From: Roseicella frigidaeris
GTDB lineage: Bacteria; Pseudomonadota; Alphaproteobacteria; Acetobacterales; Acetobacteraceae
Assembly (NCBI RefSeq): GCF_003258945.1
Contig: NZ_QLIX01000002.1
Span: 310,843-374,842, forward strand
Direction of reading: 5' to 3'
DNA: 64,000 nucleotides
Positions 14,487-62,953 of this stretch are shown piece by piece. A model generated the notes under the pieces. It was not told the DNA's origin. It saw nothing but the letters and a program-made list of their open reading frames with translations, and made no database searches. Made by a program: the position numbers and the translations under genes. The first letter of the stretch is position 1, and the number at the start of each line of letters is the position of its first letter.

Positions 14487-15562
14487 CCGCGCTCCCCTGG
14501 CAGCAGGGCGAGCAGCCGTTCCGCGGCGGCACGCCAGGTGAAACCCGCAGCCCGCGCCAGGCCCTGCTCGCGCAGGCTGGCCGCCAGGCCCTCCTCCTGC
14601 AGCAGCCGCGCGAGCGCGGCCGGCAGGGCACCCTCGGCCGCCGGATCGAACCAGAGCGCGGCCTCGCCGCAGACCTCCGGCACGGCGCCGGAGGCGGCGG
14701 CGATGACTGGGCAGCCGCAGGCCATGGCCTCGAGTGGCGGCAGGCCGAACCCCTCATAGCGGGAGGGAAAGAGCAGGCAGAGCGCCGATTCGTAGAGGGC
14801 GCGCAACTCGGCGTCGCTGACCCGCCCGAGCGCCCGGACCGCCCCGGCCGCGGCATCGACGCCGCCGCCCCGGCGGTAGACGGCGGGATCGGCGGCGCCG
14901 GCGACGGCGAGCAGGCAGCCATGCCGCGCCAGCAGCCCGGCGCAGTCGGCCAGCGCCGCCAGGTTCTTGTGCGCCGCCGGATTGCCGACCACCAGCGCGT
15001 AGCGGCCCGACTGCAGGCCATGGCGCGCCAGCACCTCGGCCGCCGCCGGGGCGCGCAGGATATGCTCCGCCCCCTCGGGCATGACGCCGATGCGGCCGGG
15101 ATCGAGGCCGAGATGATGCGCGATCCGTCCGCGGGAGAAGCCGGAGACGGTGACGATGCGCGCGCCGGCCCGCGCCAGCGCCAGGTGCAGCGCCCGGTAC
15201 CAGTTCCGGAAGGCGGCGGAGTAGCTCTCCGGCGTGTCGAAGGCGCCGGCGTCGTGGATGACGACGAGCTGCCGGCGCCCCATGGCGAGGGGCGCGGTGT
15301 TGCCGAGATTGACCAGGGTGCAGCCGCGTGCGCGCAGCGGCAGCTCCAGCTGCTCCCAGGCCTGGCCGCGCAGCAGCGAGGCCGCGCCGTCCCGCAGCGA
15401 GCGGAAGGGGGAGGGCGCGCCGCCGGCGGGCTGCAGCAGCCGGGCATCGGGCAGGCGGAACTCGCCGGCCAGCGCATCCAGCGCGCGGGTGACCTCGGTG
15501 GCGAAGCGCTGCACGCCGGTCACCTTCTGGCCGAGGAAGCGGCCATTGATCGCGAGCGGCAT
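14480..15562 (-). CDS. Glycosyltransferase family 4
   Basis: 360-residue GT-B enzyme starting MPLAINGRFLGQKVTGVQRF, the usual opening of EPS mannosyltransferase-type GT4 proteins. Conserved blocks: LVVIHDAGAFDTPESYSAAF, IVTVSGFSRGRIAHHLG, YALVVGNPAAHKNLAAL and the C-terminal donor site LFPSRYEGFGLPPLEAMACG. The ATG at 15562 overlaps the stop of the flippase gene (ATGA); the much longer frame upstream is the flippase read out of frame. It is part of the seven-gene EPS run. Confidence 0.92.
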   Translation of the reverse strand: MPLAINGRFLGQKVTGVQRFATEVTRALDALAGEFRLPDARLLQPAGGAPSPFRSLRDGAASLLRGQAWEQLELPLRARGCTLVNLGNTAPLAMGRRQLVVIHDAGAFDTPESYSAAFRNWYRALHLALARAGARIVTVSGFSRGRIAHHLGLDPGRIGVMPEGAEHILRAPAAAEVLARHGLQSGRYALVVGNPAAHKNLAALADCAGLLARHGCLLAVAGAADPAVYRRGGGVDAAAGAVRALGRVSDAELRALYESALCLLFPSRYEGFGLPPLEAMACGCPVIAAASGAVPEVCGEAALWFDPAAEGALPAALARLLQEEGLAASLREQGLARAAGFTWRAAAERLLALLPGERGW

Positions 15563-17082
15563 CAGGAGCCGCTCCCGGCGCGGAGCGCCCCGCCCGGCAG
15601 CCGCAGCAGGCCCCTGAGCCGCGCCTTCTCCGCCGGCTCGAGCGCCCGCAGCGCCAGCAGCCCGAAGCCGGCGAGGCCGGCCAGGGCCAGAAGCGGGGCC
15701 GCCGTCGCCCGGGGCAGCACCGGCAGCAGGGCGAGGCAGCAGCCTGCCGCCGCCAGCGGCGGCAGCAGCGTCGCCACCGCCCGCCGCACCGCCGGGTAGA
15801 GCCGGCCGGCGAGCCAGAGCTTGCCGAGCGCGTCGACGAGGCAGCGCAGCGCCCAGGCGATGGCCGCGCCCTCGATGCCGATCCAGCGCAGCAGCAGGGC
15901 GGCGAGCGGCAGGTAGAGCAGGGCCTGGAGCAGGGCGAAGCGGGCGGTGACGTCCGGCCGGCCGATCGCGTCGATCAGCGCCGCCGGCACGAAGGCGAGG
16001 CAGGAGAAGAAGATGCCGGCGCCGAGGATGCGCAGCACCTGGCCGCCGCCGGCGGCGAAATCCGGCCCCAGCCAGAGGACGAGGATGAACTCGCCGCCGC
16101 CGGCCAGCAGCAGCCCGACCGGCAGCACCAGCCCCATCACCATCAGCCCGCCGCGGCGCAGCAGCGATGCGGTCTGCCGCGGCAGCGTGGCATGGGCCGA
16201 GGCGAAGGCCGGCAGCAGCGTCTGCGCCACCGCGACCGGCAGCATCCAGACCCGCATGACGAGGTCGAGCGGCGTCGCGTAGTAGGCGACGGCCGTCAGC
16301 GAGAGCAGGGCGCCGATGAGGAAGCGGTCGGCATAGAGCAGGGCCTGGGTCAGCAGGCCGGAGAAGGTCATCCAGCCGCCGATCCGCAGCAGCGGCAGCA
16401 CCAGCCCGAGCCGCAGCGGCGTCGCCAGCACCTGCGCGACCAGGCGGCGCAGCAGGAGCAGGTAGGAGAGCGTGTTGACCAGCCGCACCCCGACCAGCGC
16501 CAGCATCACCGCCGTCAGGCTGTCCCAGACCAGCAGCACCAGCACCGGGCCGAGATAGTAGAAGAGGTTGACCGGGATGGTGACGAGGTTGGCGGCGCGG
16601 AAGCGCTGATAGGCCGCCAGCACGCCCCAGAGCGCCGCGTTCAGCACCACCAGCGGCGCCGCGAGGGCCAGCACCCGCATGCCGGAGACGGCCTGCGGCT
16701 GCAGCGCCGGCGGCACCTGGAGGCCATGCTCGACCAGCCAGGGGATGCCGAGCCAGAGGGCGAGGGCCATGACCAGGCTGATGCCGGCGAGCACCGCGAG
16801 CGCGGCGCCCACCAGCCCGGCCGCCTCCGCCTCCCGTCCGGCGCCGATCCGCTCCGACAGGGCGCGGGTCAGGGCCTGGCCGACGCCCAGGTCGAAGACG
16901 CCGAAGACGCCGACCATGGCGAGGGCCAGGGTGAAGAGACCCCAGCGGTCGAGCCCGAGCTGATGCACGAGGATCGGCGTCAGCAGCAGGGCGAGCAGGA
17001 GCGGCAGGCCGCGCCCGGCGGCGTTCCAGGCGATCCCGGCGACCATCATGCGTGCCCTGGTGCGGGATTCGGGATGGTCCAT
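15562..17082 (-). CDS. Lipopolysaccharide/exopolysaccharide flippase (Wzx-like, MATE/MOP superfamily)
   Basis: 506-residue polytopic membrane protein with about 12-14 hydrophobic segments, starting with a soluble MDHPESRTRARMMVAG leader; an ATG at 17049 is an alternative start. The arrangement and the GVFGVFDLGVGQALTRALSE segment are typical of polysaccharide-biosynthesis (PST/Wzx) flippases, which move undecaprenyl-linked repeat units across the inner membrane. It is flanked by an initiating sugar transferase upstream and four glycosyltransferases downstream. No Wzy-type polymerase or export (Wza/Wzc) gene is in the window. Confidence 0.88.
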   Translation of the reverse strand: MDHPESRTRARMMVAGIAWNAAGRGLPLLLALLLTPILVHQLGLDRWGLFTLALAMVGVFGVFDLGVGQALTRALSERIGAGREAEAAGLVGAALAVLAGISLVMALALWLGIPWLVEHGLQVPPALQPQAVSGMRVLALAAPLVVLNAALWGVLAAYQRFRAANLVTIPVNLFYYLGPVLVLLVWDSLTAVMLALVGVRLVNTLSYLLLLRRLVAQVLATPLRLGLVLPLLRIGGWMTFSGLLTQALLYADRFLIGALLSLTAVAYYATPLDLVMRVWMLPVAVAQTLLPAFASAHATLPRQTASLLRRGGLMVMGLVLPVGLLLAGGGEFILVLWLGPDFAAGGGQVLRILGAGIFFSCLAFVPAALIDAIGRPDVTARFALLQALLYLPLAALLLRWIGIEGAAIAWALRCLVDALGKLWLAGRLYPAVRRAVATLLPPLAAAGCCLALLPVLPRATAAPLLALAGLAGFGLLALRALEPAEKARLRGLLRLPGGALRAGSGS

Positions 17083-48356: not shown

Positions 48357-48435
48357 CGGCTCCAGGGGTCTTGCGCCGGAGGGAGCGTTGCGGTTGCATG
48401 CGTGCATCGCAGGACGAGACGCGACCGGGGGCGAC

Positions 48436-49650
48436 ATGACGGTTCGGTTGTTCGGGCGCCGCCAGATGCTGGCAGGTGCAGGGACGGTATTGGCAGCGCC
48501 CGCGCTTGCTCAGGCACCGGCAGGCGCGATCCGGATCGGCGAGATCAACAGCTACACGGCGCAGCCGGCCTTCCTGCTGCCCTATCGCAATGGCTGGACC
48601 CTGGCGCTGGAGCAGGTGAACGCCGCCGGCGGCATCAATGGCCGGCGGCTGGAGACGCTGCATCGCGACGATGGCGGCAAGCCGGAGGATGCGGTCCGCC
48701 TGGCCGGGGAGCTGGCGAATGCCGAGAAGGTGGCGCTGCTCGCGGGCGGCTTCCTGTCGAATATCGGCCTCGCCATCTCCGATTACGCCAACCAGAACCG
48801 TATGCTCTACGTCGCCTCCGAGCCGCTGACGGATGCGCTCGTCTGGTCGCGCGGCAACCGCTACACCTTCCGCTTGCGCGCCAGCACCTACATGCAGTCG
48901 GCGATGCTGGTGGAGCAGGCGGCGAAGCTGCCGGCGAAGCGCTGGGCCTGCGTGGCGCCGAACTACGAATACGGCCAGTCGGCCGTGCGCTGGTTCAAGG
49001 AGCTGCTGACGCGCCACCGCCCCGATGTGAGCTTCGTCGCCGAGCAATTCCCGGCACTCGGCCGCATCGATGCCGGCGCCACGGTGCAGGCGCTCGCCGC
49101 GGCGAATCCGGAGGCGATCTTCAACGTCACCTTCGGGGCCGACCTGACCAATTTCGTCCGCCAAGGCCTGACCCGCGGGCTGTTCGAGCAGCGGCGCGTC
49201 GTCTCGCTCCTCACCGGCGAGCCCGAATATCTCGACCCGCTGCAGGACGAGGCGCCGGAGAACTGGATCGTCACGGGCTATCCCTGGGAGCAGGTGAACA
49301 CCCCGGAGCATGCTGCCTTCCGCGACGCCTACCGCAAGCGCTGGAACGACCACCCACGGCTCGGCAGCGTGGTCGGGCACGATACCGTCATGGCCATCGC
49401 CGCCATGCTGCGGAAGGCGACGGCCGTGGAATCGGAGGCGATGGTGGATGCCATGGCGGGGCTGCGCTTCGGCTCGGTCTTCGGGCCGGTGGAGTTCCGC
49501 GCCATCGACCATCAATCGACCATGGGTGCCTTCGTCGGCCGCACCGTGCTGAAGAACGGCCGGGGCACCATGGCCGACTGGCACTATGCCGATGGCAAGG
49601 ACTACCTGCCGCCCGACGAGACGGTGCGCCAGCTGCGACCGCAAAGCTGA
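48436..49650 (+). CDS. Branched-chain-type ABC transporter substrate-binding protein
   Basis: 404 residues from the ATG at 48436 (an upstream in-frame ATG at 48388 is less likely because the export leader begins at the second). Leader FGRRQMLAGAGTVLAAPALA has a twin-Arg, mature part starts AIRIGEINSYTAQPAFLLPY, and WACVAPNYEYGQSAVRWFKE is typical of LivK-type proteins. First gene of a complete Liv set: binding protein, fused permease, two ATPases. The ligand could be an amino acid or an aromatic or N-heterocyclic acid. Confidence 0.9.
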   Translation: MTVRLFGRRQMLAGAGTVLAAPALAQAPAGAIRIGEINSYTAQPAFLLPYRNGWTLALEQVNAAGGINGRRLETLHRDDGGKPEDAVRLAGELANAEKVALLAGGFLSNIGLAISDYANQNRMLYVASEPLTDALVWSRGNRYTFRLRASTYMQSAMLVEQAAKLPAKRWACVAPNYEYGQSAVRWFKELLTRHRPDVSFVAEQFPALGRIDAGATVQALAAANPEAIFNVTFGADLTNFVRQGLTRGLFEQRRVVSLLTGEPEYLDPLQDEAPENWIVTGYPWEQVNTPEHAAFRDAYRKRWNDHPRLGSVVGHDTVMAIAAMLRKATAVESEAMVDAMAGLRFGSVFGPVEFRAIDHQSTMGAFVGRTVLKNGRGTMADWHYADGKDYLPPDETVRQLRPQS

Positions 49651-49660
49651 TCCAGGCGCC

Positions 49661-51505
49661 TTGGAGACCCTGGTTCTTCAGGCGCTCAGCGGCCTGGCAA
49701 GCGCCTCGTCCCTTTTCCTGGTGGCGAGCGGGCTGACGGTCATCTTCGGCGTCAGCCGCATCGTCAACTTCGCCCATGGCTCCTTCTACATGCTGGGCGC
49801 CTACCTGGCCTGGAGCCTGGTCACCGCCCTGCCGCGCGGCCATCTCGGCTTCTGGGGCGGCATCCTGGCGGCCGCGCTCGGCGTCGGGCTGATCGGCATC
49901 GCGATCGAGACGCTGCTGCTCCGCCGCATCTACCGGGCGCCGGAGCTGTTCCAGCTGCTGGCGACCTTCGGCGTCGTGCTCATCGTGCAAGACCTCGCGC
50001 TGCTCCTCTGGGGGGCGCAGGACCTGCTCGGGCCGCGGGCGCCCGGGCTGCGCGGCGGCACGATGATCCTCGGGCTGCGCTTCCCGGATTACGAGCTGTT
50101 CCTGATCGCGGTCGGGCCGGTCGTCCTTCTCCTGCTGCACCTGCTCTTCCACCGCACGCGCTGGGGCATGCTGGTGCGCGCGGCAACCCAGGACCGGGAG
50201 ATGGTCGGGGCCCTCGGCGTCAACCAGCGCATGCTCTTCACCAGCGTCTTCTTCCTCGGCGCCTGCCTGGCCGGTCTGGGGGGCGCGCTGCAGCTGCCGC
50301 GCGAGAGCGTCAATCTCGGCATGGACCTCGCCATCATCGTCGAGGCCTTCGTGGTGGTCGTCGTCGGCGGCCTCGGCAGCCTGATGGGCGCGGCGCTGGC
50401 CGCCCTGCTGATCGGCGAGCTGCACGCCCTCGGCATCCTCGTCCTGCCGAAGATCACGCTGGTGCTCGTCTTCCTGGTGATGGCGGTGGTGCTGGTCATG
50501 CGGCCGCATGGCTTGCTGGGCCGCGCCCAGGCGCCGGCGGCGGCCGGGGCGGCGGCCGAGCCCGCCATCGGCGCGACGCCGCGGCCGCTGGTCTGGCTCG
50601 GGCTCGCGGCGCTGCTCGCGGCGCTGGCGCTGCCGCCCTTCGCCGGGGATTACGCGCTCTCGGTGCTGACCGAGATCGCCATCCTGATCCTCTTCGCCGC
50701 CAGCCTGCATCTCATCATGGGGCCGGGCGGCATGGCGAGCTTCGGCCATGCCGCTTATTTTGGCCTCGGCGCCTATAGCGCGGCGCTCGCCGCCAAATGG
50801 CTGCTGGCGCCGATGGCGATCGGCCTCGCCCTGGCGCCGGTGGCGGCGGGGTTGGGCGGCCTGCTCTTCGGCTGGTTCTGCGTCCGCCTCTCCGGGGTCT
50901 ATGCGGCGATGCTGACCCTCGCCTTCGCCCAGATCGCCTGGTCCGTCGCCTTCCAATGGAGCGAGGTGACGGGCGGCGACAACGGCATCCTCGGCGTCTG
51001 GCCGGATGCCTGGGCGGCACCGCGGCTGGTCTACTACTATCTGACGCTCGGCCTCTGCCTGGCGGCGACCCTCCTCCTGCGCCGGGTGATCCGCGCCCCC
51101 TTCGGCTATGCCCTCCGGGCGCAGCGGGACAGCGCCCTCAGGGCGGAGACGATCGGCATCGACGCCTTCGCCATCCGCTGGCGCGCCTTCGCGCTGGCCG
51201 CCGTCATGGCCGGGCTGGCCGGCGGGCTCTTCGCCTATGCCAAGGGCAGCGTCTTCCCCACCTATCTCGGCATCCCGCGCAGCGTCGATGCGCTGCTCAT
51301 GGTCCTGCTGGGCGGGGTGCAGACGCTGAGCGGGCCGATCCTCGGCGCCATCGCCTATACCGGGCTGCAGGAGCAGCTCATGCGCCTGACCGATCTCTGG
51401 CGCCTCATGCTCGGCACGACGATCCTGCTGCTGGTTCTGTTCTTCCCGCAGGGGCTGGCCGGCGCCGCCCGCGCGCGCTGGGAGGGCCGCCATGGCGGTG
51501 CTTGA
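49661..51505 (+). CDS. Fused LivH-LivM permease of branched-chain-type ABC transporter
   Basis: 614-residue inner-membrane protein combining both Liv permeases. Residues about 1-290 are LivH-like (GLTVIFGVSRIVNFAHGSFY; AFVVVVVGGLGSLMGAALAA), a 20-residue Ala-rich linker follows (QAPAAAGAAAEPAIGA), then LivM (LIMGPGGMASFGHAAYFGLG; TGGDNGILGVWPD; SVDALLMVLLGGVQTLSGPI). I chose TTG at 49661, which begins exactly at the usual LivH N-terminus; an ATG at 49586 would overlap the binding-protein gene by 65 bases. Normally these are two genes. It overlaps livG by 14 bases. Confidence 0.88.
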   Translation: METLVLQALSGLASASSLFLVASGLTVIFGVSRIVNFAHGSFYMLGAYLAWSLVTALPRGHLGFWGGILAAALGVGLIGIAIETLLLRRIYRAPELFQLLATFGVVLIVQDLALLLWGAQDLLGPRAPGLRGGTMILGLRFPDYELFLIAVGPVVLLLLHLLFHRTRWGMLVRAATQDREMVGALGVNQRMLFTSVFFLGACLAGLGGALQLPRESVNLGMDLAIIVEAFVVVVVGGLGSLMGAALAALLIGELHALGILVLPKITLVLVFLVMAVVLVMRPHGLLGRAQAPAAAGAAAEPAIGATPRPLVWLGLAALLAALALPPFAGDYALSVLTEIAILILFAASLHLIMGPGGMASFGHAAYFGLGAYSAALAAKWLLAPMAIGLALAPVAAGLGGLLFGWFCVRLSGVYAAMLTLAFAQIAWSVAFQWSEVTGGDNGILGVWPDAWAAPRLVYYYLTLGLCLAATLLLRRVIRAPFGYALRAQRDSALRAETIGIDAFAIRWRAFALAAVMAGLAGGLFAYAKGSVFPTYLGIPRSVDALLMVLLGGVQTLSGPILGAIAYTGLQEQLMRLTDLWRLMLGTTILLLVLFFPQGLAGAARARWEGRHGGA

Positions 51506-52250
51506 GGCGGAAGGGCTGCGCAAGCGCTTCGGCGGCGTCGAGGCGGTGCGCGGCGTCTCCTTCGCCGTCGAGGCGGGCGAGATGCTGGCGCTCATCGGCC
51601 CGAACGGCGCCGGCAAATCCACCTGCTTCAACATGCTGAACGGCCAGTTGCGGCCCGATGCGGGCCGCGTGCGCCTCCGTGGGCAGGACATCACCGGCCT
51701 CGCGCCGCGCAAGGTCTGGCGCCTCGGCGTCGGCCGCACCTTCCAGGTCACCGCCACCTTCGGCTCCATGACGGTGCTGGAGAACGTGCAGATGGCGCTG
51801 CTCTCGCACCAGGGGCGCCTCGGCCGGCTCTGGCGGCCGGTCTCCGCCATGGACCGGGCGCCCGCCGAAGCGCTGCTGGCGCGGCTCGGCATCGCGGCGC
51901 AGGCGGAGCGTCCCTGCGGCATCCTGGCCTATGGCGACCTCAAGCGGGTCGAGCTCGCCATCGCCCTGGCGAACGACCCGGCACTGCTGCTGATGGACGA
52001 GCCGACGGCCGGCATGGCGCCGCAGGAGCGGGTGGCGCTGATGGCGCTGACGGCGCGCATCGCCCGCGAGCGGCGGATCGCCGTCCTCTTCACCGAGCAC
52101 GACATGGACGTGGTCTTCGCGCATGCCGACCGGATCCTGGTGCTCGACCGCGGCGCGCCGATCGCCGAGGGCGCGCCTGCCGCGGTGCGGGCCGATGCGC
52201 GGGTGCGCGAGGTCTATCTCGGCTCCGGCGCCACCCAGGGCGGGCATTGA
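51492..52250 (+). CDS. livG: ABC transporter ATP-binding protein, LivG-like
   Basis: 252 residues. Walker A GPNGAGKSTCFNMLNGQL, LivG-specific GVGRTFQVTATFGSMTVLEN (Q-loop region), a weak signature LAYGDLKRVELAIAL in place of LSGGQ, Walker B ALLLMDEPTAGMAPQERVAL and switch His in FTEHDMDVVFAHADRIL. The tail reading AREVYLGSGA matches the family. It overlaps the next gene (TGATG). Pairs with LivF as the ATPase dimer. Confidence 0.93.
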   Translation: MAVLEAEGLRKRFGGVEAVRGVSFAVEAGEMLALIGPNGAGKSTCFNMLNGQLRPDAGRVRLRGQDITGLAPRKVWRLGVGRTFQVTATFGSMTVLENVQMALLSHQGRLGRLWRPVSAMDRAPAEALLARLGIAAQAERPCGILAYGDLKRVELAIALANDPALLLMDEPTAGMAPQERVALMALTARIARERRIAVLFTEHDMDVVFAHADRILVLDRGAPIAEGAPAAVRADARVREVYLGSGATQGGH

Positions 52251-52951
52251 TGCTGGAGGTCAGCGGCCTCGCGGCGCAGTATGGCCGCGCCCAGATCCTC
52301 GCCGAAGTCGGGCTGACCGTCGCGGCCGGCGAGGTGGTCGTCCTGCTCGGCCGCAACGGCGCCGGCAAGAGCACCACCCTGAAGGCGATCATGGGGCTGG
52401 TGCCGCCGAGCGCCGGACGGATCCGCTTCCGCGGCCAGGAGATCGCCGGGCGCCCGCCCTTCGAGATCGCCCGGCTCGGCCTCGGCTATGTGCCGGAGGA
52501 GCGGCGCATCTTCTCCGAGCTGACGGTGATGGAGAATCTCGAGGTCGGCCGCCGCCCCGCGCCGCCGGGGCAGCAGGCCTGGACGCCGGAGCGGCTCTTC
52601 GCGCTCTTCCCGAGCCTCGGCGCCATGCGCCACCGGCCGGGCGGCCGCATGAGCGGCGGCGAGCAGCAGATGCTGACCATCGCCCGCACCCTGATGGGCC
52701 AGCCGCGCCTGGTGCTGCTCGACGAGCCGAGCGAGGGCCTCGCCCCGGTGGTGGTGGAGCGCATGGCCGAGGCGATCCTGGCGCTGAAGGCCGAGGGGCT
52801 CTCGATCCTGCTCTCCGAGCAGAACCTGCATTTCGCCCGTGCCGTCAGCGACCGCGCCACCATCATCGAGAAGGGCCGCATCCGCTGGGAAGGCGGCATG
52901 GCGGCGCTGATGGCCGATGCCGGGATCCGCGAGCAGTATCTTTCCGTCTGA
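52250..52951 (+). CDS. livF: ABC transporter ATP-binding protein, LivF-like
   Basis: 233 residues. Walker A GRNGAGKSTTLKAIMGL, LivF-specific GLGYVPEERRIFSELTVMEN, signature RMSGGEQQMLTIARTL, Walker B LVLLDEPSEGLAPVVVERM. The ATG at 52250 overlaps the LivG stop; a TTG one codon earlier exists but is less likely. Convergent with the UPF0280 gene, whose stop is ten bases further on. Completes the Liv transporter. Confidence 0.93.
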   Translation: MLEVSGLAAQYGRAQILAEVGLTVAAGEVVVLLGRNGAGKSTTLKAIMGLVPPSAGRIRFRGQEIAGRPPFEIARLGLGYVPEERRIFSELTVMENLEVGRRPAPPGQQAWTPERLFALFPSLGAMRHRPGGRMSGGEQQMLTIARTLMGQPRLVLLDEPSEGLAPVVVERMAEAILALKAEGLSILLSEQNLHFARAVSDRATIIEKGRIRWEGGMAALMADAGIREQYLSV

Positions 52952-52960
52952 GCCGGCCGC

Positions 52961-53821
52961 TCAACCGGGCCCGCAGCCCGGCAGCAGCCGCGGATCGCCG
53001 ACGCTGCGCAGCCCGTCCTGCAGCGCCAGCAGCGCCGCCTGGATCAGGCCGCGCTGCAGCAGCGCCTCCGCCACCGCCGCGCCGGCCTCGAGCGCCGCGG
53101 CGATCACCGCCTCCGGCAGCGGCCCGACCTCCGTGGTGACGAGCCGCTCGCCGAGATCGCTGTCGGGATCGAGCGACCGCGCCGGCGCCCGCCGGATCGC
53201 CGGATGCTCGGCATCGACGGCATTGGCGATGACCGTGGCGGCGGCATCGGCCGCGGCCCCGTTCGCCGCCAGCACGGTGACGGCATCGGCGATGCCGCGG
53301 GAGAAGCTGCGGCCCGGCCAGCCGGAGGTGGCGACGCCGCGCACCGGGTCGGCAGCGGCGAGGCGCACCAGCCCCTCCGGCGCGGCGCGTTGCAGGCTGC
53401 GCACGAGGCCGACCCGCAGCGCCTGGCCGGGGGCGAGGAAGAGCGCGATGTCGCCGCCATTGTTGACATGCGCGCTCAGCAGGCCCGGCGTGCCGGCGAT
53501 GGCCTCGCACAGCTCGTCCGCCACGGCACCGGCCACCGCGGCCATCGGCGTGATGTAGTCGCGGCGGAAGGGCCAGACCGCCGCCGCCATACGCCGCGCG
53601 ACGGGGCCGCGCAGGGCAGGGGGATCGGCGCCGACCGGCTGGCGCAGCAGCGGCAGTTCCGCGGCCAGCCCGGCGAGCAGTCCGTCGAAACCCGCCGCGG
53701 CCCGGCGCGCCGCCTCCGCCATGGCGGCGCGCGTGCCGTCGAGCCCGATCACCAGGTCGATCGGCCCCTCCTGCAGGTGCAGCCGCCCGTCCGGCAGCGC
53801 CGCGATCACGGCGCCGGCCAT
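52961..53821 (-). CDS. UPF0280 family protein, ApbE-like (candidate flavin transferase for 6-hydroxynicotinate reductase)
   Basis: 286-residue soluble protein of UPF0280, a family without an assigned function. Several blocks parallel ApbE FMN transferases: HVNNGGDIALFL (residues 118-129, ApbE 'N.GGDI'), GVATSGW (162-168), ADAVTVLAANGAAADAAAT (178-196, ApbE 'VTV..... ADALAT'). The family's known fold is ApbE-like. The gene overlaps the end of the 6-hydroxynicotinate reductase gene by 16 bases, and E. barkeri Hnr has covalently bound flavin. A flavinylation role is my inference. Start ATG at 53821 was chosen where the family's usual N-terminus begins. Confidence 0.85.
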   Translation of the reverse strand: MAGAVIAALPDGRLHLQEGPIDLVIGLDGTRAAMAEAARRAAAGFDGLLAGLAAELPLLRQPVGADPPALRGPVARRMAAAVWPFRRDYITPMAAVAGAVADELCEAIAGTPGLLSAHVNNGGDIALFLAPGQALRVGLVRSLQRAAPEGLVRLAAADPVRGVATSGWPGRSFSRGIADAVTVLAANGAAADAAATVIANAVDAEHPAIRRAPARSLDPDSDLGERLVTTEVGPLPEAVIAAALEAGAAVAEALLQRGLIQAALLALQDGLRSVGDPRLLPGCGPG

Positions 53822-55290
53822 GGATTCCCGGCCATCCAGGGCTCGTGCCGCGCCGCCTCGCCATGCTCGGCGAGCAGGCGTTCCAGCGGGATCGCATGCC
53901 CGACATGGCCGCCGAGCCGGGCATAGAGGTCGGCGCGCAGGGTGAACTCGATCGGCGCCACCAAAGCGGGCGTCGGCACCGTGCCGAAGGCGCCCTCCGG
54001 CACCCGCAGCACATCCGCCATGATGGTGATGCCGCCACCGGGCCAGAGGGTGCAGGGCGCGCCGCCGATCGTCACCCGCACCAGGCCGTTCTGCACCTCG
54101 CGGGTCAGCCGCACCGGGTTTTCCGTCACCCCGGCGCGCAGGCTGCCGCCGGCGCCGGCCATGAAGAGGATGGAGGTGAGGGCCGGCTCGCAATTCTCGC
54201 CGATGCGCTCGACCGTCCGCAGCACGGCAGGCGGCGTCGGCACCGGCACGGGGCGCAGCCCCTCGTCGAGCTCGACATAGAGATGCTCCTCGCCCGTGGT
54301 GCTGGTCAGCAGTAGCCGCAGCCCCGGCCAGGCCTGCTTCGGGTCGATCCGCTCGATGACGGCGAGCGGGTCGGTGATGTCGGTGCCGCCCCAGCCGGTG
54401 CCGGGATCGGCCACCTGGAAGTAGCGGCCGGGCGTCGAGCGACGGCCGCGCAGGCGGATGCCGCTCGGCGGGATGTCGAGGCACTTCCCGGCCTGGTGCT
54501 CGGAGAGCAGCCCGGTGATGTGGTCGTCGATGACGATCACCTCATCGACATGGCCATGCCATTGCTGCGCGAAGATGCCGATGGCGGCGCTGCCGCAGCC
54601 GACCCGCATGCGCCGCTCCGGCACGCCATCGACGATCGGCGCCTGGCCGGCCTGCAGCACCAGCCGGGCGCCGCCATCGATCGTCACCTCGACCGCCGCC
54701 TTCTCGCAGAGCGCCAGCATGGCGGCGCAGGTGGTGCTGCCCTCCTTCTTGCTGCCGCCCGTGAGGTGCCGCACGCCGCCGAGGCTCAGCATCTGGCTGC
54801 CATATTCGGCGGTGGTGACATGCCCGACCGGCTCGCCCTCCACCCGCACGGTTGCCGTCTCCGGGCCGAGATAGCGGTCGGTGTCGATCTTCACCTTCAA
54901 CCCGCAATAGCTGAAGATGCCCTCCGTCACCACGGTGACGGTATCGACCCCCGCATGCTGCGCGGCGACGATGAAGGGCGCCGGCTTGTAGTCGGGATAG
55001 GTGGTGCCGGCGCCGATGCCGGTCACGAAGGTCTCGCGCGCGGCGGCGATGCCGCCCTGCCAGTCCTCGGCCGCCTCGAGGAAGGGCACGGTCGCGCCGC
55101 CCGCCGCCAGGGTGCGGTGCAGCAGCAGCAGCGGCTCGGTGCGGACCAGGCGGCCGTCGCGGTTGGCGTAGCGGTCGCAGGCACCGGCGCGGCCGGGCCG
55201 GATGCGGCAGAGGACGGGGCAGGCATCGCAGCGGATGATGCCCTCGTCGCCCTCGCGCGCGCCTAGCAGGGCGGTGCGGTCCTGGCTCAT
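53806..55290 (-). CDS. hnr: 6-hydroxynicotinate reductase (Hnr)
   Basis: 494-residue iron-sulfur flavoprotein-type reductase. It would reduce 6-hydroxynicotinate to 1,4,5,6-tetrahydro-6-oxonicotinate. The N-terminal Cys cluster CDACPVLCRIRPGRAGAC (Cys21, 24, 28, 38) is a typical [4Fe-4S] site, with further Cys near residues 130, 190, 237 and 270. TYPDYKPAPFIVAAQHAGVD and SQMLSLGGVRHLTGGSKKEG belong to the conserved core. No textbook ApbE flavinylation motif (D..S/TGAT) is evident. It overlaps the Mo-enzyme gene by four bases upstream and UPF0280 downstream. No transmembrane segment. Confidence 0.85.
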   Translation of the reverse strand: MSQDRTALLGAREGDEGIIRCDACPVLCRIRPGRAGACDRYANRDGRLVRTEPLLLLHRTLAAGGATVPFLEAAEDWQGGIAAARETFVTGIGAGTTYPDYKPAPFIVAAQHAGVDTVTVVTEGIFSYCGLKVKIDTDRYLGPETATVRVEGEPVGHVTTAEYGSQMLSLGGVRHLTGGSKKEGSTTCAAMLALCEKAAVEVTIDGGARLVLQAGQAPIVDGVPERRMRVGCGSAAIGIFAQQWHGHVDEVIVIDDHITGLLSEHQAGKCLDIPPSGIRLRGRRSTPGRYFQVADPGTGWGGTDITDPLAVIERIDPKQAWPGLRLLLTSTTGEEHLYVELDEGLRPVPVPTPPAVLRTVERIGENCEPALTSILFMAGAGGSLRAGVTENPVRLTREVQNGLVRVTIGGAPCTLWPGGGITIMADVLRVPEGAFGTVPTPALVAPIEFTLRADLYARLGGHVGHAIPLERLLAEHGEAARHEPWMAGNPWPAP

Positions 55291-57989
55291 CGGTGCAGCG
55301 CCTCCAGGATGCGGTGCGGCAGAGCGGGGATGCGGGTCAGGCTGGCCCCGGTCGCGTCGCGGATCGCCGAGAGGATCGCCGGGGCGGTCGCCACCAGCGC
55401 CGGCTCGCCGATGCCCTTGGCGCCGAAAGGGCCGAGCGGCTCGCGCGCCTCGATCAGCAGGCACTCGATCTCCGGCACGTCGCCGATGGTCGGGATCAGG
55501 TAGTCGTGCAGGTTCTCGGTGCGGCCGGGCAGGTATTCCTCCATCAGGGCGAGGCCGATGCCCTGGGCGATGCCGCCCTGGATCTGGCCCTCGACCAGGG
55601 TGGGGTTGATCGCCCGGCCGACATCATGCGCCGCGACGATGCGTTGCAGATGCACGGTGCCGAGATCGAGATCCACCGAGAGGGCGGCAAGCTGCGCCGC
55701 GAAGCCGTAGGTCGCATAGGGGATGCCCTGGCCATCGGCATCGAGCGGCCGGGTCGGCGGATCGAAGCGGCCGATGCCCTCCAGCGGCGTCTCCAGCCCG
55801 ACCGGGCGGCCATCGACCAGCAGCCTGCCATCGCGCAGCGCCAGCCGCGCCTCCGGCCCGGCATTGGCCCGCAGCAGGATGGCCTGGCGCAGCGCCTGGC
55901 CGGCCTCGGCGGCGGCGCGGCCGCTGACGAAGGTCTGGCGGGAGGCGCTGGTCTTGCCGGCATCCGCGGTCAGGTCGGTGTCGCCGAGCACGAGGCGGAA
56001 GGCCGCGACCGGCAGGCCGAGCGCATCGGCCGCGATCTGCAGCAGCGCCGTGGTGCTGCCCTGGCCGATATCGACCGCGCCGTTGTGGAAGACGAGGCCG
56101 TCCGGCCCGAGGGTGAGGCGCATGGTCGAGGGGTTCGACATGCCGGTATTGCCGATGCCGTACCACATGCAGCCGATGCCGACGCCATGCCGCCGGCGGC
56201 CGCCCTCCGCATCGGCCTGGGCATTGGCCGCCGCCGCTGCGGCGCGCAGCGCCCGCCAGCGCGGCCGCAGCGCGTCGAGGCACTCCACCAGCCCGACGGA
56301 ATGCTCCAGCCGCTGCCCGGTCGCCGTCCCGTCGCCCGCCCGCAGCGCGTTCAGGGCCCGGAATTCCAGCCGGTCGAGCCCCGCCGCATCGGCCAGCCGG
56401 TCCCAGAGCGCCTCCTGCGCGATCGCCGCCTGCGGCACGCCGAAGCCGCGGAAGGCGCCGGCCGGCGGGTTGTTGGTGAAGATGGCGCGCGCCCGGGCGG
56501 CGACCGCCGGCACGCGGTAGGGACCCATGGCATGCACCGGCACCCGCCCGGCGACGGTCGGGCCCCAGCTCGCATAGGCGCCGGTCTCGTAGAGGCCCTC
56601 GAAGGCGAAGCTAGTGAGGCGCCCGGCGGCGTCGCAGCCGGCGCGGGCCGCGATGCGCGCCGGATGCCGCTTGGTGCTGCTCGCCATGCTCTCGCCCCGC
56701 GGCAGCACGGCGCGCACCGGGCGATGCAGCAGCCAGGCGGCGATGGCGAGCATGGGCTGGATCGAGACGTCGAGCTTGCCGCCGAAGCCGCCGCCGCAGG
56801 CCGAGGGGATAATGCGCACCGCCGCCTGCGGCAGGCCGAGCACGCCGGCCACCTCCTCGAGATCCATGTAGGGGGCCTGGGTGCAGGCGAAGACCTCGAT
56901 CCGGTCGCCCACCCGCCGCGCCCAGCCCGCCTCGGGCTCGATATAGGCATGCTCGACGAAGCCGGTCTCGATCTCGATCGCGGCGCTGTGCCGGCTCGTC
57001 CGCAGCGCCGCCTCGGCATCGCCGGAGACCACGCGGCCGGTGGTCAGCACGTTGTCCGGCCAGCGCGGCTGCACCGGCTCGCCACCCAGCGCATCCTCGA
57101 GCGTAACCGGGGCGAGTTGCGTCCAGGCGATGGGCAACTCTTCGGTCCGGATCGCCTCCAGCGCCGCCCGGTCGCCGACCAGGGCGCAGAGGCAGTCGCC
57201 GCGATAGCGCACCTCGCCCTCGGCGAAGACCGGCTGGTCCTTGATGTCGGGATAGATGCCGAAGCCGTTGCGGCCCGGCACGTCGGCCGCCGTCAGCACC
57301 CGCGCCAGCCCGGGATGGCGCGCCAGCAGCGGCGCCCAGTCGCCGAAGGCGAAGCGGGCGCGCGGATAGGGGCTGCGCACGGCGCGCAGCCAGAGGGCGC
57401 CGTCGGGCGCGGCATCGGCGCCGAAGCGATCCGTGCCGGTGACCTTGGCAGGACCATCGGCGCGCGGCAGGCGCTCGCCCACGGCGCAGCCGGCCCAGGG
57501 CGCGCGTGGTTCCGGCCCGCCGCCGAGGAAACGGTGCGCGTCGCAGACCGCCTCGACGATCTTGCGGTAGCCGGTGCAGCGGCAGAGCACGCCGCCGAGC
57601 GCCGCCGCCACCGCCGCCTCCTCCGGCCGGGCCTCGGCCGCGAGCAGCTCGCTCGCCGCCATCAGCATGCCCGGCGTGCAGATGCCGCATTGCGCCGCCC
57701 CGTGATGCAGGAAGGCGCGCTGCAGCGCGGCGCCCATGGGCGTCGCGGCCAGCCCCTCCACGGTGGTGACGGCATGGCCCGCCGCCTGCGCCACCGGCAC
57801 CAGGCAGGCGCAGGCCTGGACGCCGTCGATCTGCACCGTGCAGGCGCCGCAATCGCCGGCATCGCAGCCGATCTTGGTGCCGGTCAGGCCGAGCTCGTCG
57901 CGCAGGACGGTGCTCAGCCGCGTCTGGCCGGGCACCAGCACGCGGCGGGTCTCGCCATTGACCTGCAGCAGCAGGGCCGGGCTGGTCAT
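55287..57989 (-). CDS. Xanthine-dehydrogenase-family Mo hydroxylase with fused [2Fe-2S] domain (probable nicotinate dehydrogenase)
   Basis: 900-residue fusion. Residues 1-160: two [2Fe-2S] clusters, plant-type GCDAGDCGACTVQIDG (Cys42, 47, 50 and one of 60/62) and CGICTPG (101, 104) with CRCTGY (136, 138). Residues 165-900: molybdopterin domain with ACGGGFGGKLD, FRGFGVPQAAIAQEAL, VDIGQGSTTALLQIAADALG and the catalytic Glu862 in GAKGIGEP. Most bacterial enzymes have the iron-sulfur and Mo parts on separate chains. The FAD chain is the adjacent upstream gene, overlapping by four bases. Nicotinate as substrate is inferred from Hnr and enamidase neighbours. Confidence 0.9.
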   Translation of the reverse strand: MTSPALLLQVNGETRRVLVPGQTRLSTVLRDELGLTGTKIGCDAGDCGACTVQIDGVQACACLVPVAQAAGHAVTTVEGLAATPMGAALQRAFLHHGAAQCGICTPGMLMAASELLAAEARPEEAAVAAALGGVLCRCTGYRKIVEAVCDAHRFLGGGPEPRAPWAGCAVGERLPRADGPAKVTGTDRFGADAAPDGALWLRAVRSPYPRARFAFGDWAPLLARHPGLARVLTAADVPGRNGFGIYPDIKDQPVFAEGEVRYRGDCLCALVGDRAALEAIRTEELPIAWTQLAPVTLEDALGGEPVQPRWPDNVLTTGRVVSGDAEAALRTSRHSAAIEIETGFVEHAYIEPEAGWARRVGDRIEVFACTQAPYMDLEEVAGVLGLPQAAVRIIPSACGGGFGGKLDVSIQPMLAIAAWLLHRPVRAVLPRGESMASSTKRHPARIAARAGCDAAGRLTSFAFEGLYETGAYASWGPTVAGRVPVHAMGPYRVPAVAARARAIFTNNPPAGAFRGFGVPQAAIAQEALWDRLADAAGLDRLEFRALNALRAGDGTATGQRLEHSVGLVECLDALRPRWRALRAAAAAANAQADAEGGRRRHGVGIGCMWYGIGNTGMSNPSTMRLTLGPDGLVFHNGAVDIGQGSTTALLQIAADALGLPVAAFRLVLGDTDLTADAGKTSASRQTFVSGRAAAEAGQALRQAILLRANAGPEARLALRDGRLLVDGRPVGLETPLEGIGRFDPPTRPLDADGQGIPYATYGFAAQLAALSVDLDLGTVHLQRIVAAHDVGRAINPTLVEGQIQGGIAQGIGLALMEEYLPGRTENLHDYLIPTIGDVPEIECLLIEAREPLGPFGAKGIGEPALVATAPAILSAIRDATGASLTRIPALPHRILEALHR

Positions 57990-58846
57990 GCCGCCGCACC
58001 CGCCAGCGATGGGGCGAGGGCGCGCCGCAGCAGCACCAGCGCGGCGTGGCGGCGGTAGGCCGCGCTCGCCCGCACATCGTCGATCGGGGCGAGGGGGGCC
58101 AGATGCGCCGGCTCCGGCACCGCGGCGGCCAAGCCCAGGGGCAGGCCGGCGAGATCTGCTTCCAGCGCCGGCAGGCGCTGCGGCACCGCGGAGCAGGCGC
58201 CGATGGCAATGCGGGCGCGAGTGATGCGGCCGGCCTCGGCCTCGATCACCACCGCCACCGAAACCAGCGAGATCACCAGGAAGGCGCGGCTGCCGAGCTT
58301 GTCGAAGCGGGCCGTGGCGCCCCGGCCGGGCTTCGGCACGATCACCGCCGTCATGATCTCGCCGGGGGCGAGGGCGGTCCGGCGGTTGCCCAGGAGGAAG
58401 CTGCTGAGCGGCAGGCGGCGCCGGCCCTCCCGGCATGCCAGCTCCAGCTCGGCACCCAGCGCCAGCAGGGGCGGCGCGCCATCGGCGGCGGGCGAGGCGT
58501 TGCAGAGATTGCCGCCGAGCGTCGCCCGGCTCTGCACCTGCCGGCCGCCGATCCACGCCGCCGCCCCGCGCAGCCCGTCGAACCAGGGCGGCAAGCCGGC
58601 ATCGCGGATCGTCGCCCAGCGCGTGCCGGCGCCGATGCGGTGGTGGTCGGGGCGCTCGGCGATGCCGGCCATGCCGGGAAGCGCCGAGAGATCGAGCAGC
58701 GGGCGGTCCCGCGGCTGCAGCCAGGCCTCGGCCGCGGCGCGGGCGGGGTAGATGTCGGTGCCGCCCGCGAGCGGCTGCATCGCGGGCACCGCCGCCAGCA
58801 GGTCGAGCGCCTCCCGCAGGCAGGTCGGTCGATGATAGGCGGGCAT
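57986..58846 (-). CDS. FAD-binding subunit of the Mo hydroxylase (CoxM/NdhF-like)
   Basis: 286 residues. MPAYHRPTCLREALDLLAA, QPLAGGTDIYPARAAAE (FAD-binding GGTD), IGAGTRWATIRDAGL and QSRATLGGNLCNASPAADGA (FAD/iron-sulfur interface) are canonical for FAD_binding_5/CO-dehydrogenase medium subunits. It completes the three-cofactor Mo hydroxylase. ATG at 58846 begins at the family N-terminus; longer frame upstream is the iron-transport permease region read out of frame. It lies 76 bases after the end of the frameshifted permease. Confidence 0.9.
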   Translation of the reverse strand: MPAYHRPTCLREALDLLAAVPAMQPLAGGTDIYPARAAAEAWLQPRDRPLLDLSALPGMAGIAERPDHHRIGAGTRWATIRDAGLPPWFDGLRGAAAWIGGRQVQSRATLGGNLCNASPAADGAPPLLALGAELELACREGRRRLPLSSFLLGNRRTALAPGEIMTAVIVPKPGRGATARFDKLGSRAFLVISLVSVAVVIEAEAGRITRARIAIGACSAVPQRLPALEADLAGLPLGLAAAVPEPAHLAPLAPIDDVRASAAYRRHAALVLLRRALAPSLAGAAA

Positions 58847-58922
58847 GCCCCTCCGGATGGCCTGATCGGGCCAATCCCAACCCGGCGCCGCCAAGGGCGC
58901 AAGCAAAAGGAGGGTGCGGCCG

Positions 58923-60507
58923 CTACCCGCCGGGCCGGCGGGCCATGAACAGGGCGACCGAGGCGAGGCCGACCACCACCAGGGCGAGGGCGGCGACGGC
59001 GCCTTCCTCATAGGTGCCCCGCGCAGCCTCGGCATAGAGGGCCGTCGCCAGGGTCTCGCGGTTCAGCGGCCGCAGCAGCAGGGTCGCCGGCAACTCCTTC
59101 ATCGCATCGAGGAAGGTCAGCAGCGCGGCGGCCGAGAGGGAGGGCGCCAGCAGCGGCAGATGGACCTGGCACAGGAGCCGCGCCTCCGACGCCCCCATGG
59201 AGCGGGCGGACCAGTCCATCTCCCTGCGGAGGCGGGCGTAGCCGGCATCCAGCCCGCCGGCCGGGATGGCGAGGAAGCGGATGACATAGGCCGCAACCAC
59301 GGCGGCCATGCTGCCGGACAGCGCCATCGGCGCCCAGGCTGCGGCGAGGTCGTCCAGCCGGCCGAAGGCAATGGTCAGGCCGACCGCCGCCACGCCGCCC
59401 GGCAAGGCATAGCCGAGCATGCCCGCCCGCAGCAGCAGCGCCCCCGGCCCGGGCCGCGGCTCGCGCCGCGCGCCATAGGCCATGGGCAGCGCCAGCAGGA
59501 GGGCCAGCAGCGTCGCCAGGCCGCTGAACATCCCGCTATGGGCGATCCAGCGGGCGAGGTCCGGCGGCAGCCCGAATTCGGCGACGCGCCGGCCGGCCGC
59601 CCAGGCGAGATAGGCGACGGGCAGGAGGAAGCCCAGCAGCACCGGCAGCGCGCAGGCCAGCATGGCGAGGAGCCCGGCGGCGCCGGGGAGGGGGCGCGGC
59701 TCGAGCGGGACCGACTGGTCAGGCGCGCCGGGCGCCTGCCGGCGCGCCCAGCGCTCCAGCGTCAGCACGGCCGCCACCAGCAGGAGCAATGCCAGGGCGA
59801 CCTGCGCCGCGCCCGGCAGCGAGGAGCGGGTGATCCAGGTGACGTAGACGGCGACCGTCAGGCTGCGCACGCCGAGGATATCGGCGGCGCCGACATCGTT
59901 CAGGGTCTCCAGCAGCGCCAGCGCCGCGCCGGCGGCGATGGCCGGGCGCGCCATCGGCAGGCCGATGCGGCGGAACAGCAGCCACCCCGTCGCCCCGGCC
60001 GACCGGCCGGCGCGCAGCGGGCCGGGGCCCTGGCTGCGGAAGGCGGCGCGGGCGGCGAGATAGACATAGGGAAAGAGCACCATCCCCAGCACCAGCACGC
60101 AGCCGCCGAGGGAGCGGATCTCCGGCAGCGGGATCGCGCGCGGATCCGTCAGCCCCAGGCTCCGCCGCAGCGCCATCTGCACCGGCCCGGCGGGATGCAG
60201 CACGTCCAGCCAGGCATAGGCGGCGACATAGCCGGGCAGCGCCATGGGCAGCACCAGGGCGCCGGCCAGCAGGCGGCGCCCGGGAAAGCGGTAGCAGGTG
60301 ACCAGCCAGGCCGTGCCGGTGCCGACCGCGACCACCACCAGCCCGACGCCGGCCAGCAGCAGCCGTCTCGCGCAGCGCCGCGGGCAGGACATGGCGCAGC
60401 AGATGCGGCCAGAGCTCGCCCGAGCCGGCCGCCGCGGCGCCGGCGAGGGCCAAGACCGGCAGCATCACCAGCGCCGCCGCGGCGCCGGCGATCAGCCGCA
60501 GCCACAT
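58923..60507 (-). pseudogene. Fe3+ ABC transporter permease (FbpB/AfuB-like), frameshifted near the N-terminus
   Basis: Two-domain iron permease of about 525 residues if restored. The true N-terminus, starting ATG at 60507 (MWLRLIAGAAAALVMLPVLA, then HLLRHVLPAALRET), is in one frame; the rest (LLLAGVGLVVVAVGTGTAWL, FPGRRLLAGALVLPMALPGY, then GGCVLVLGMVLFPYVYLAAR and a second domain with SMGASEARLLCQVHLPLLAP) is in another. A single extra G at 60363-60364 shifts the frame: removing it gives RET-LLLAGVG in register. The ATG at 60392 in the second frame is not a natural start. This is either a real inactivating mutation or a base-call error. The usual ATPase gene is absent. Confidence 0.78.
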
Positions 60508-61753: not shown

Positions 61754-62953
61754 ATGGCGGTCGAGCAGGCGGCGGGACCTGCGACGGGACGGACCCTGGT
61801 GCGGCGGATCGGCCTGCTGCTCTCCGGCGACCTCGCCCGGCCGCTGCTGGAGGCGGATGCCCTGCTGATCGAGGCGGGGCGGATCGTCGGCATCGGCCGC
61901 GAGTCGGAGCTCGCCGCCCGCGGGCCGGTCGATGCCACCATCGACGCGCATGGCTGCGCCGTCGCGCCCGGCCTGATCGACAGCCACGTGCATCCGGTGA
62001 TCGGCGACTGGACGCCGCGGCAGACCCAGATCGGCTGGGTGGAGAGCTGCCTGAACGGCGGCGTGACCACCATGATCTCGGCCGGCGAGGTGCATCTGCC
62101 GGGCCGCCCGAAGGACATACTCGGCCTGAAGGCGCTGGCGATCACCGCGCAGCGGGCCTTCGAGAATGCCCGGCCGGCCGGGGTGAAGGTGCTCGCCGGG
62201 GCGCCGGTGCTCGAGAAGGGCATGGTCGAGAGCGATTTCGCCGAGCTGGCGGCGGCCGGCGTCACCCTGCTCGGCGAGGTCGGGCTCGGCTCGGTCAAGG
62301 CCGGCTACGAGGCGCGCGAGATGGTCGCCTGGGCCCGCCGCCACGGCATCCAGAGCACCATCCATACCGGCGGCCCCTCGATCCCCGGCAGCGGGCTGAT
62401 CGACCGGGACACGGTGCTCGAGGCCGATGCCGACATCATCGGCCATATCAATGGCGGCCATACCAGCCTGCCGGAGGCGCATGTCTGCGAGCTCTGCGAG
62501 CGGTCGAGCCGCGCCATCGAGATCGTGCACAACGGCAACGAGCGGGTGGCGATCGCGGCGGTGCAGGCGGCGCGGGATCTGGGGCAGCTGCACCGGGTCA
62601 TCCTCGGCACCGACAGCCCGGCCGGCTCGGGAGTGCAGCCGCTCGGCATCCTGCGGCTGGTCTCGCTGCTCTCCTCGCTCGGCGGCATCCCGGCCGCCGA
62701 GGCCATCGCGCTGGCCACCGGCAACACCGCGCGCATCCGGGCCCTCGATGCCGGGCTGCTGGAGGTGGGGCGCGCGGCCGACCTGGTCTTCCTCGACCGG
62801 GCGCAGCACACAGCCGGCCGCGACCTGCTGCACAGCATCGAGCTCGGCGACATCCCGGGCATCGGCGGCGTCATGATCGATGGCGCCATGCGCTGCGGCC
62901 GCAGCCGCAACACCCCGCCGGCCGAGCGGGTGCCCGAGGTCCTCGGACACTGA
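61754..62953 (+). CDS. ena: Enamidase (1,4,5,6-tetrahydro-6-oxonicotinate hydrolase), amidohydrolase family
   Basis: 399 residues. Blocks GGVTTMISAGEVHLPGRPKD, LGLKALAIT.QRAFENARPA and the end SRNTPPAERVPEVLG match what I recall of Eubacterium barkeri enamidase. Metal ligands are in place: HxH (His78, His80), bridging Glu175, His204 (IHTGG), His231 (IGHINGG) and Asp287 (LGTDSPAGSG). It would hydrolyse tetrahydro-6-oxonicotinate to ammonia and 2-formylglutarate in the cytoplasm with an Fe/Zn centre. Good GGAGGCGG before the ATG at 61754. Divergent from the iron transporter; the other nicotinate genes are 3 kb away on the opposite strand. Confidence 0.88.
   Translation: MAVEQAAGPATGRTLVRRIGLLLSGDLARPLLEADALLIEAGRIVGIGRESELAARGPVDATIDAHGCAVAPGLIDSHVHPVIGDWTPRQTQIGWVESCLNGGVTTMISAGEVHLPGRPKDILGLKALAITAQRAFENARPAGVKVLAGAPVLEKGMVESDFAELAAAGVTLLGEVGLGSVKAGYEAREMVAWARRHGIQSTIHTGGPSIPGSGLIDRDTVLEADADIIGHINGGHTSLPEAHVCELCERSSRAIEIVHNGNERVAIAAVQAARDLGQLHRVILGTDSPAGSGVQPLGILRLVSLLSSLGGIPAAEAIALATGNTARIRALDAGLLEVGRAADLVFLDRAQHTAGRDLLHSIELGDIPGIGGVMIDGAMRCGRSRNTPPAERVPEVLGH

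Follow-up and report, generated by a model that had tools for sequence, protein, structure and literature searches.

The 64,000-nucleotide stretch of Roseicella frigidaeris DNA analysed here (the window; contig NZ_QLIX01000002.1, positions 310,843 to 374,842) contains hnr, the gene for 6-hydroxynicotinate reductase (Hnr), overlapped by a gene of the UPF0280 family, and raises the question of what the UPF0280 protein does for its neighbour. A preliminary description of the window, made from its sequence, proposed that UPF0280 attaches flavin to Hnr as ApbE proteins do, the FAD:protein FMN transferases (FAD, flavin adenine dinucleotide; FMN, flavin mononucleotide). We found that the two genes were near-exclusive partners across genomes, and that the fold predicted for UPF0280 is that of ApbE. 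The two genes were located as follows.

52961..53821, minus strand: UPF0280 (COG2122) family gene of the Hnr-linked clade, 286 amino acids, ATG start; 362 bits to NF003322, predicted ApbE fold (AlphaFold2, Foldseek)
53806..55290, minus strand: hnr, 6-hydroxynicotinate reductase, 494 amino acids, ATG start; plasmid relatives at 60-70% identity, many annotated as 6-hydroxynicotinate reductase

The window protein was assigned as Hnr by its homology to annotated Hnr on plasmids and by its hydroxylase and amidohydrolase neighbours. The 16 bases shared by the two genes (53806-53821), as the preliminary description had it, were borne out; the overlap was peculiar to the window genome, the sole case of overlapping matched ends among 67 same-contig pairs.

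A genome survey of co-occurrence, one of the checks suggested in the preliminary description, was carried out on 385 alphaproteobacterial genomes. Hnr matched in 70 of them (E <= 0.001) and the NCBIfam model NF003322 in 74. Two Hnr genomes, in which the match was only 34-38 residues long and confined to the N-terminal Cys region, together with six UPF0280 genomes at or below 29.5 bits to NF003322 were set aside. Hnr and NF003322-type UPF0280 were then found in the identical 68 genomes, representing 42 genera, and neither was found in the other 317. The UPF0280 match exceeded the curated NF003322 cut-off in 65 of the 68; in G064, G087, and G292 a contig end interrupted the gene, and adjacency was judged from its N-terminal piece. 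The two genes adjoined on one strand in 67 of the 68 genomes, with their matched ends -10 to 222 nt apart, and in G231 the matches lay on separate contigs, with UPF0280 32 bases from a contig end. Four genomes from the same family as the window genome (G026, G158, G256, and G334) had neither gene. In one single-contig genome (G028, loci L055 and L056) hnr consisted of two overlapping pieces in different frames beside an intact UPF0280 gene, possibly a recent break of hnr or a sequencing error.

The pairing extended beyond this sample. A phylum-wide draw of 299 genomes yielded 21 with Hnr, including 16 new ones, and the flanking sequence retrieved contained UPF0280 in 21/21; here UPF0280 was sought only beside the Hnr genes found, the 278 other genomes lying outside the UPF0280 search. 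A codon-pattern scan of named genomes returned 24 stretches, all encoding Hnr, from SAR116, Rhodobacteraceae, Limnohabitans, Jezberella, Granulosicoccus, and an Acidobacteriaceae among others. UPF0280 lay within the fetched stretch in 19 of the 24 loci and elsewhere in the genome for the other five. A UPF0280 search of named genomes gave matches in 9/9, four of them above the cut-off, and the SAR116 forms were divergent. The Granulosicoccus UPF0280 gene did not adjoin hnr, and 81 shared 60-mers suggested a common contig for the two. Firmicutes Hnr, sought with an AT-biased codon pattern in genome_contigs, was not found among the 24 loci, which were titled as Alphaproteobacteria, other proteobacteria, and one Acidobacteriaceae. 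A search of viral_contigs gave no relatives of Hnr, DUF39, or UPF0280.

Exceptions were sought on plasmids and in a second phylum. Among 72,556 plasmids, 26 carried Hnr and 27 carried UPF0280, with 26 shared. The lone UPF0280-only plasmid was Hydrogenophaga pBPS33-1, in which PPIEFSMTMADYLDFGGHSDQVFSVDAAL could be read between IS1071 and UPF0280. It looks like an hnr truncated by IS1071, because PPIEFSMTMADYLDFGGHSDQVFSVDAAL fits the Hnr C-terminal consensus APIEFTLxxxDYAALGGHxDxV by eye; tblastn gave only E 0.70. In the pBPS33-1 stretch shown (L081, Hydrogenophaga sp. BPS33) the IS1071-flanked module occurred twice, with UPF0280 at 4126-5058 and 14935-15867, and comprised UPF0280 with the apparent hnr C-terminal remnant, a Rieske oxygenase, a PDR/VanB reductase, and transporter binding proteins; four UPF0280 places were counted in the record. 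In the phylum of G657, UPF0280 matched in 16 of 52 genomes (13 above the cut-off), and Hnr, looked for only in these 16, was present in 14. The two genes lay on separate contigs in G680 and G681 and 2.4 kb apart in G679, and therefore the pairing is not merely that of a single operon. Hnr was lacking in two genomes: G701, with a 97-codon piece of UPF0280 at the end of a contig, one unexplained case that possibly reflects incomplete assembly, and G704, which is considered below. Such pairing is far from chance, and it is well supported that this UPF0280 subfamily is a dedicated, near-exclusive partner of Hnr.

Six weak NF003322 matches in further Alphaproteobacteria were examined and rejected. 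One (L135) was a spurious match to a short-chain dehydrogenase. The other five (L133:3479-4273, L134:2885-3757, L136:2534-3319, L137:2356-3150, and L138:2917-3669) formed a degenerate UPF0280-like family without the ATSG and ADAAAT blocks and with a common DLLVRFGVSEWR/DRLLRFGVSxWR tail.

UPF0280 corresponds to COG2122, and the statement in the preliminary description that it has no assigned function was wrong. According to passages of PMC5764234, homocysteine synthesis in D. vulgaris needs COG2122 together with DUF39 and a NIL/ferredoxin protein. The member MA1715 is termed a sulfur trafficking protein in part of PMC12068725, and a Cys cluster is noted in a methanogen COG2122 member in part of PMC9431491. 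We therefore weighed the possibility that UPF0280 is an Hnr-specific Fe-S cluster or sulfur factor whose task is to load or repair the Hnr clusters, the likeness to ApbE being ancestral only. The homocysteine-type proteins just described would favour such a role, as would the seven invariant Cys of Hnr (21, 24, 28, and 38 in the 47/47 rows reaching them; 129, 232, and 367 in 49/49). However, the homocysteine-type proteins (D. vulgaris DvMF_0044, the DVU1097 structure 2o34, and MA1715), although they share family and fold with Hnr-linked UPF0280, have DUF39 and NIL/ferredoxin as partners instead of Hnr, have different best NCBIfam models, and carry in the active-site loop a Cys and a His that are replaced by Ala and Arg in the Hnr clade (CGSSARIGHS in 2o34 and CSSSSKMGHS in L116, the two sequences on which this comparison rests, versus ATSGxxGRS). 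DUF39 (PF01837) was found in 0/68 of the Hnr genomes, the window genome included, and no Cys column was conserved in Hnr-clade UPF0280 (maximum 13/51). A cysteine-based sulfur role thus appears unlikely for the Hnr clade, because it has no conserved Cys, its loop Cys is replaced by Ala, and DUF39 is absent from its genomes; the Fe-S or sulfur factor as a whole we also consider improbable.

G704 provided the positive case for the DUF39 partner. In this genome the gene order was DUF39 - NIL/4Fe-4S ferredoxin - UPF0280, and the UPF0280 protein scored 66 bits to NF003322 versus 196-218 bits to three sister models, whereas the window protein (P0001) scored 362 bits to NF003322 (PRK04334.1-2; cut-off 290). 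By sequence, UPF0280/COG2122 falls into two or more clades that differ in partner, the Hnr clade being separate from the homocysteine clade. UPF0280 without Hnr, which according to the preliminary description would count against its proposal, was thus found for the family as a whole (D. vulgaris, methanogens, and G704), but not for the Hnr-linked clade, distinct in sequence and partner.

Distant kinship between Hnr and DUF39, by which the two UPF0280 clades would have partners of a single kind, was also tried and rejected. The likeness of VTTAEYGSQMLSLGG to VTTATFGPMCSSGC in hhalign was visual, with a P-value of 0.35 (0.3 for the C-terminal part) in a comparison with a single DUF39 sequence. 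The 14 Pfam families listed for 49 Hnr proteins (E <= 10) did not include HcyBio, comparisons of Hnr with NIL-ferredoxin and of the UPF0280 profile with Hnr gave no match, and DUF39 had no match among the plasmids.

What, then, does the UPF0280 protein resemble? Structure prediction against ApbE, likewise suggested in the preliminary description, was run with AlphaFold2 on P0001 and a 49-row alignment (A7), and gave a mean predicted local distance difference test score (pLDDT) of 96.0 and a predicted template modelling score of 0.93. Foldseek placed 2o34 first, followed by FmnB (7esb, E 7e-5), the ApbE proteins of P. stutzeri, V. cholerae, and E. coli, and Treponema Ftp (4ig1). The query template modelling (TM) scores to FmnB, ApbE, and Ftp were 0.30-0.53, and therefore the likeness lies in fold, not detail. 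An hhalign comparison of 51 UPF0280 with 12 ApbE sequences (of 14 ApbE loci, L098 and L099 having dropped out at the phmmer step) laid UPF0280 98-199 onto ApbE 197-312 (95.9%, E 6e-9). All four ApbE-like blocks listed in the preliminary description (VNNGGDI, GVATSGW, ADAVTVLA, and ADAAAT) were present, and by the NF003322 and hhalign scores they are beyond chance. UPF0280 is accordingly predicted to have the ApbE fold, and it is probably Hnr's own cofactor-installing helper, because the two are almost always found together and its shape is like that of flavin-attaching enzymes. The residues in question are encoded as follows.

53324..53326, minus strand: UPF0280 S166 codon (ATSG), matching the triad Ser of ApbE in the hhalign alignment; 51/51
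53285..53314, minus strand: codons of the conserved GRSxSxGxAD loop, UPF0280 residues 170-179, at the position of the ApbE His segment; 51/51 sequences, hhalign gap
53234..53248, minus strand: ADAAAT codons, UPF0280 D192-T196, matching the Mg2+-site Asp and Thr of ApbE; D in 51/51, T in 50/51

The Asp and Thr of the ADxxxT block of ApbE bind metal. D192 and T196 of UPF0280 aligned with this AD...T block, and T196 was Thr in 50 of the 51 sequences and Ser in one. In passages of PMC12052999, ApbE catalysis is described as using an Asp-Ser-His triad, with His as the general base, plus Mg2+. The equivalents of the triad Ser (S166) and Asp (D192) were each conserved in 51/51. UPF0280 thus had in common with ApbE, Ftp, and FmnB (all PF02424) the predicted fold, the NGGD, ATSG, and AD...T blocks, the triad Ser and Asp, and the Asp and Thr of the Mg2+ site.

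Several observations weighed against a flavin transferase. The hhalign match was confined to residues 98-199, the N-terminal half being unalignable, and the window protein scored 18.9 bits to the Pfam ApbE family, under the gathering cut-off of 25.6. The segment bearing the general-base His, present in 12/12 ApbE compared, was missing from UPF0280 in 51/51, with GRSxSxGxAD in its place in all of them; no His aligned there, and in 11/51 a His occurred between S166 and D192 at a position that was not conserved. As a further difference from ApbE, an export signal was not evident in the sequence. The partner also differed from those of ApbE, in that the canonical flavinylation motif D-x-x-[ST]-G-A-[ST] occurred in 0/49 Hnr, as the preliminary description had reported for the window Hnr, and [ST]GA[ST] in 0/49 as well. 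The weakest link was the covalent flavin itself, which is said, in work attributed to Alhapel and co-workers in 2006, to occur in Hnr of Eubacterium barkeri, and which for the Hnr of the bacteria studied here is presumed from that one enzyme. Part of PMC3511419 gives 42% identity between E. barkeri Hnr and the Hnr of Bradyrhizobiaceae SG-6C, whose cluster is of the window's type.

The missing His could be taken to mean that UPF0280 is a catalytically dead ApbE relative serving as a passive chaperone while Hnr flavinylates itself, which would account for both the absent acceptor motif and the absent catalytic residue. The retention of D192, T196, and S166 suggests instead a working Mg2+-nucleotide site, and we regard a dead chaperone as far-fetched. 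Moreover, the H257G variant of V. cholerae ApbE showed decreased activity according to part of PMC12052999, and therefore loss of the His is not necessarily fatal; UPF0280 would still be no ordinary ApbE.

We further investigated whether ordinary ApbE could serve Hnr. PF02424 ApbE was found in 30 of the 68 Hnr genomes and in none of the other 38; it was absent from 33 of the 61 high-quality Hnr genomes, six of them single-contig. The window genome encoded three PF02424 ApbE proteins elsewhere. An 8-alpha-linked (self-catalysed) flavin would need no transferase. If the Hnr of the 38 ApbE-less genomes carries phosphoester flavin, no ApbE-like candidate other than UPF0280 was found in them. UPF0280 might also deliver flavin non-covalently, by hydrolysing FAD to FMN, by handing flavin over, or as a bound flavin-binding subunit. 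This role would require no acceptor motif in Hnr and would suit the conserved Asp and Thr of the Mg2+ site, yet FMN is supplied in the cytosol by ordinary enzymes, and covalent Hnr flavin, if general, would be left unexplained. The fold is shared with Treponema Ftp (4ig1), an FAD pyrophosphatase according to part of PMC4767422. Non-covalent delivery nevertheless seems to us quite unlikely.

Where on Hnr a flavin might sit was approached through 49 Hnr sequences, which showed stronger conservation than UPF0280 (66% vs 51% mean column identity) and had 21 positions with invariant Ser or invariant Thr. The stretch nearest to the flavinylation motif was D255-D-H-I-T259-[GA]-x-x-[ST]263.

54502..54528, minus strand: Hnr residues 255-263 (D-D-H-I-T-G-x-x-S/T), nearest to the flavinylation motif, candidate acceptor only; conservation in 49 Hnr

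T259 was conserved in 49/49, and residue 263 was Ser or Thr in 49/49. A scan of the 49 Hnr for D-x-x-[ST]-G followed by [ST], each 90% conserved, returned none, because residue 260 is Gly in 42/49 and Ala in seven. The near-motif was not significant in a column-shuffle test, and residues 255-263 are put forward as a candidate acceptor, a suggestion and not a result. The Hnr model (pLDDT 82.6) had no match among PDB folds at E <= 0.001, and therefore the flavin site could not be placed; nor did the window Hnr match any Pfam or NCBIfam family above cut-off, or any PDB sequence.

Hnr showed two further faint resemblances. Window positions 54796-54906 (hnr residues 129-165) were weakly like the C-terminal barrel of glycine cleavage T-protein (GCV_T_C), which matched in 42/49 Hnr (best E 1.4e-4), the window Hnr falling below the cut-off. 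At 55171-55233 (residues 20-40), C21, C24, C28, and C38 resembled the N-terminus of the AmmeMemoRadiSam radical S-adenosylmethionine family (TIGR04337, E 0.019, below cut-off). Partial Hnr matches in other genomes were limited to this N-terminal four-Cys part.

The genes surrounding the pair were as follows.

48433..52951, plus strand: ATP-binding cassette (ABC) importer, with periplasmic binding protein, fused permease, and two ATPases (Pfam Peripla_BP_6, BPD_transp_2, ABC_tran twice)
55287..57989, minus strand: fused [2Fe-2S]/molybdopterin hydroxylase, probable nicotinate dehydrogenase (Pfam Fer2_2, MoCoBD_1, MoCoBD_2)
57986..59035, minus strand: hydroxylase FAD subunit, predicted start codon (Pfam FAD_binding_5, CO_deh_flav_C)
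61754..62953, plus strand: amidohydrolase, probable enamidase, named from context (Pfam Amidohydro_1)

The fused hydroxylase and its FAD subunit lay upstream of hnr on the same strand, the hydroxylase stop overlapping the hnr start, and the amidohydrolase and ABC importer flanked the cluster. Location within a nicotinate cluster would also fit a UPF0280 that itself catalyses an adjacent reaction in nicotinate breakdown rather than helping Hnr, the more so as in four loci (L084, L105, L106, and L108) it lay away from hnr, beside an AA_synth-type gene. The steps to 2-formylglutarate belong to other enzymes, and the occurrence of the family beside an unrelated pathway is a better fit to a helper; we consider a catabolic step of its own very unlikely. 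The AA_synth-type gene (PF06684, Pfam-scored for the L105 copy, with the L084, L106, and L108 copies assigned by likeness) may be a further component of the nicotinate cluster.

Together, near-exclusive pairing, the predicted fold, the conserved Asp and Thr of the Mg2+ site with the triad Ser and Asp, and hosts without other ApbE strengthened the proposal of the preliminary description that UPF0280 flavinylates Hnr; the missing His segment and the lack of a demonstrated acceptor site stood against it. From this balance we infer, with moderate confidence, that UPF0280 is the installer of Hnr flavin, and transfer of covalent flavin is the best single mechanism, with about an even chance of being correct. 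UPF0280, a protein of the ApbE fold, would work in the cytosol, depend on Mg2+, and have Hnr as its sole client. It would split FAD and place FMN, or a related flavin, on a Ser or Thr of Hnr, giving an enzyme with covalent flavin like that reported for E. barkeri, and the GRSxSxGxAD loop would do the work of the missing His segment. A wider reading is more tentative, and we hold it to be possible but doubtful: the Hnr clade may be a cytosolic flavin transferase with an active site rebuilt around GRSxSxGxAD and a new, non-canonical acceptor in Hnr, possibly residues 255-263, while the homocysteine clade modifies its own partner by related chemistry, so that the common function of COG2122 would be dedicated, partner-specific post-translational modification.

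No paper linking UPF0280 with Hnr was found in the literature searched, whose coverage left out most subscription journals. If correct, flavin transfer by UPF0280 would identify the protein that installs covalent flavin in Hnr and would define a second class of protein flavin transferase, independent of the canonical motif. It would also be a first starting point for the biochemistry of UPF0280/COG2122, a family whose biochemical contribution to homocysteine synthesis is not yet settled. Independently of the reaction involved, heterologous expression of Hnr probably requires UPF0280.

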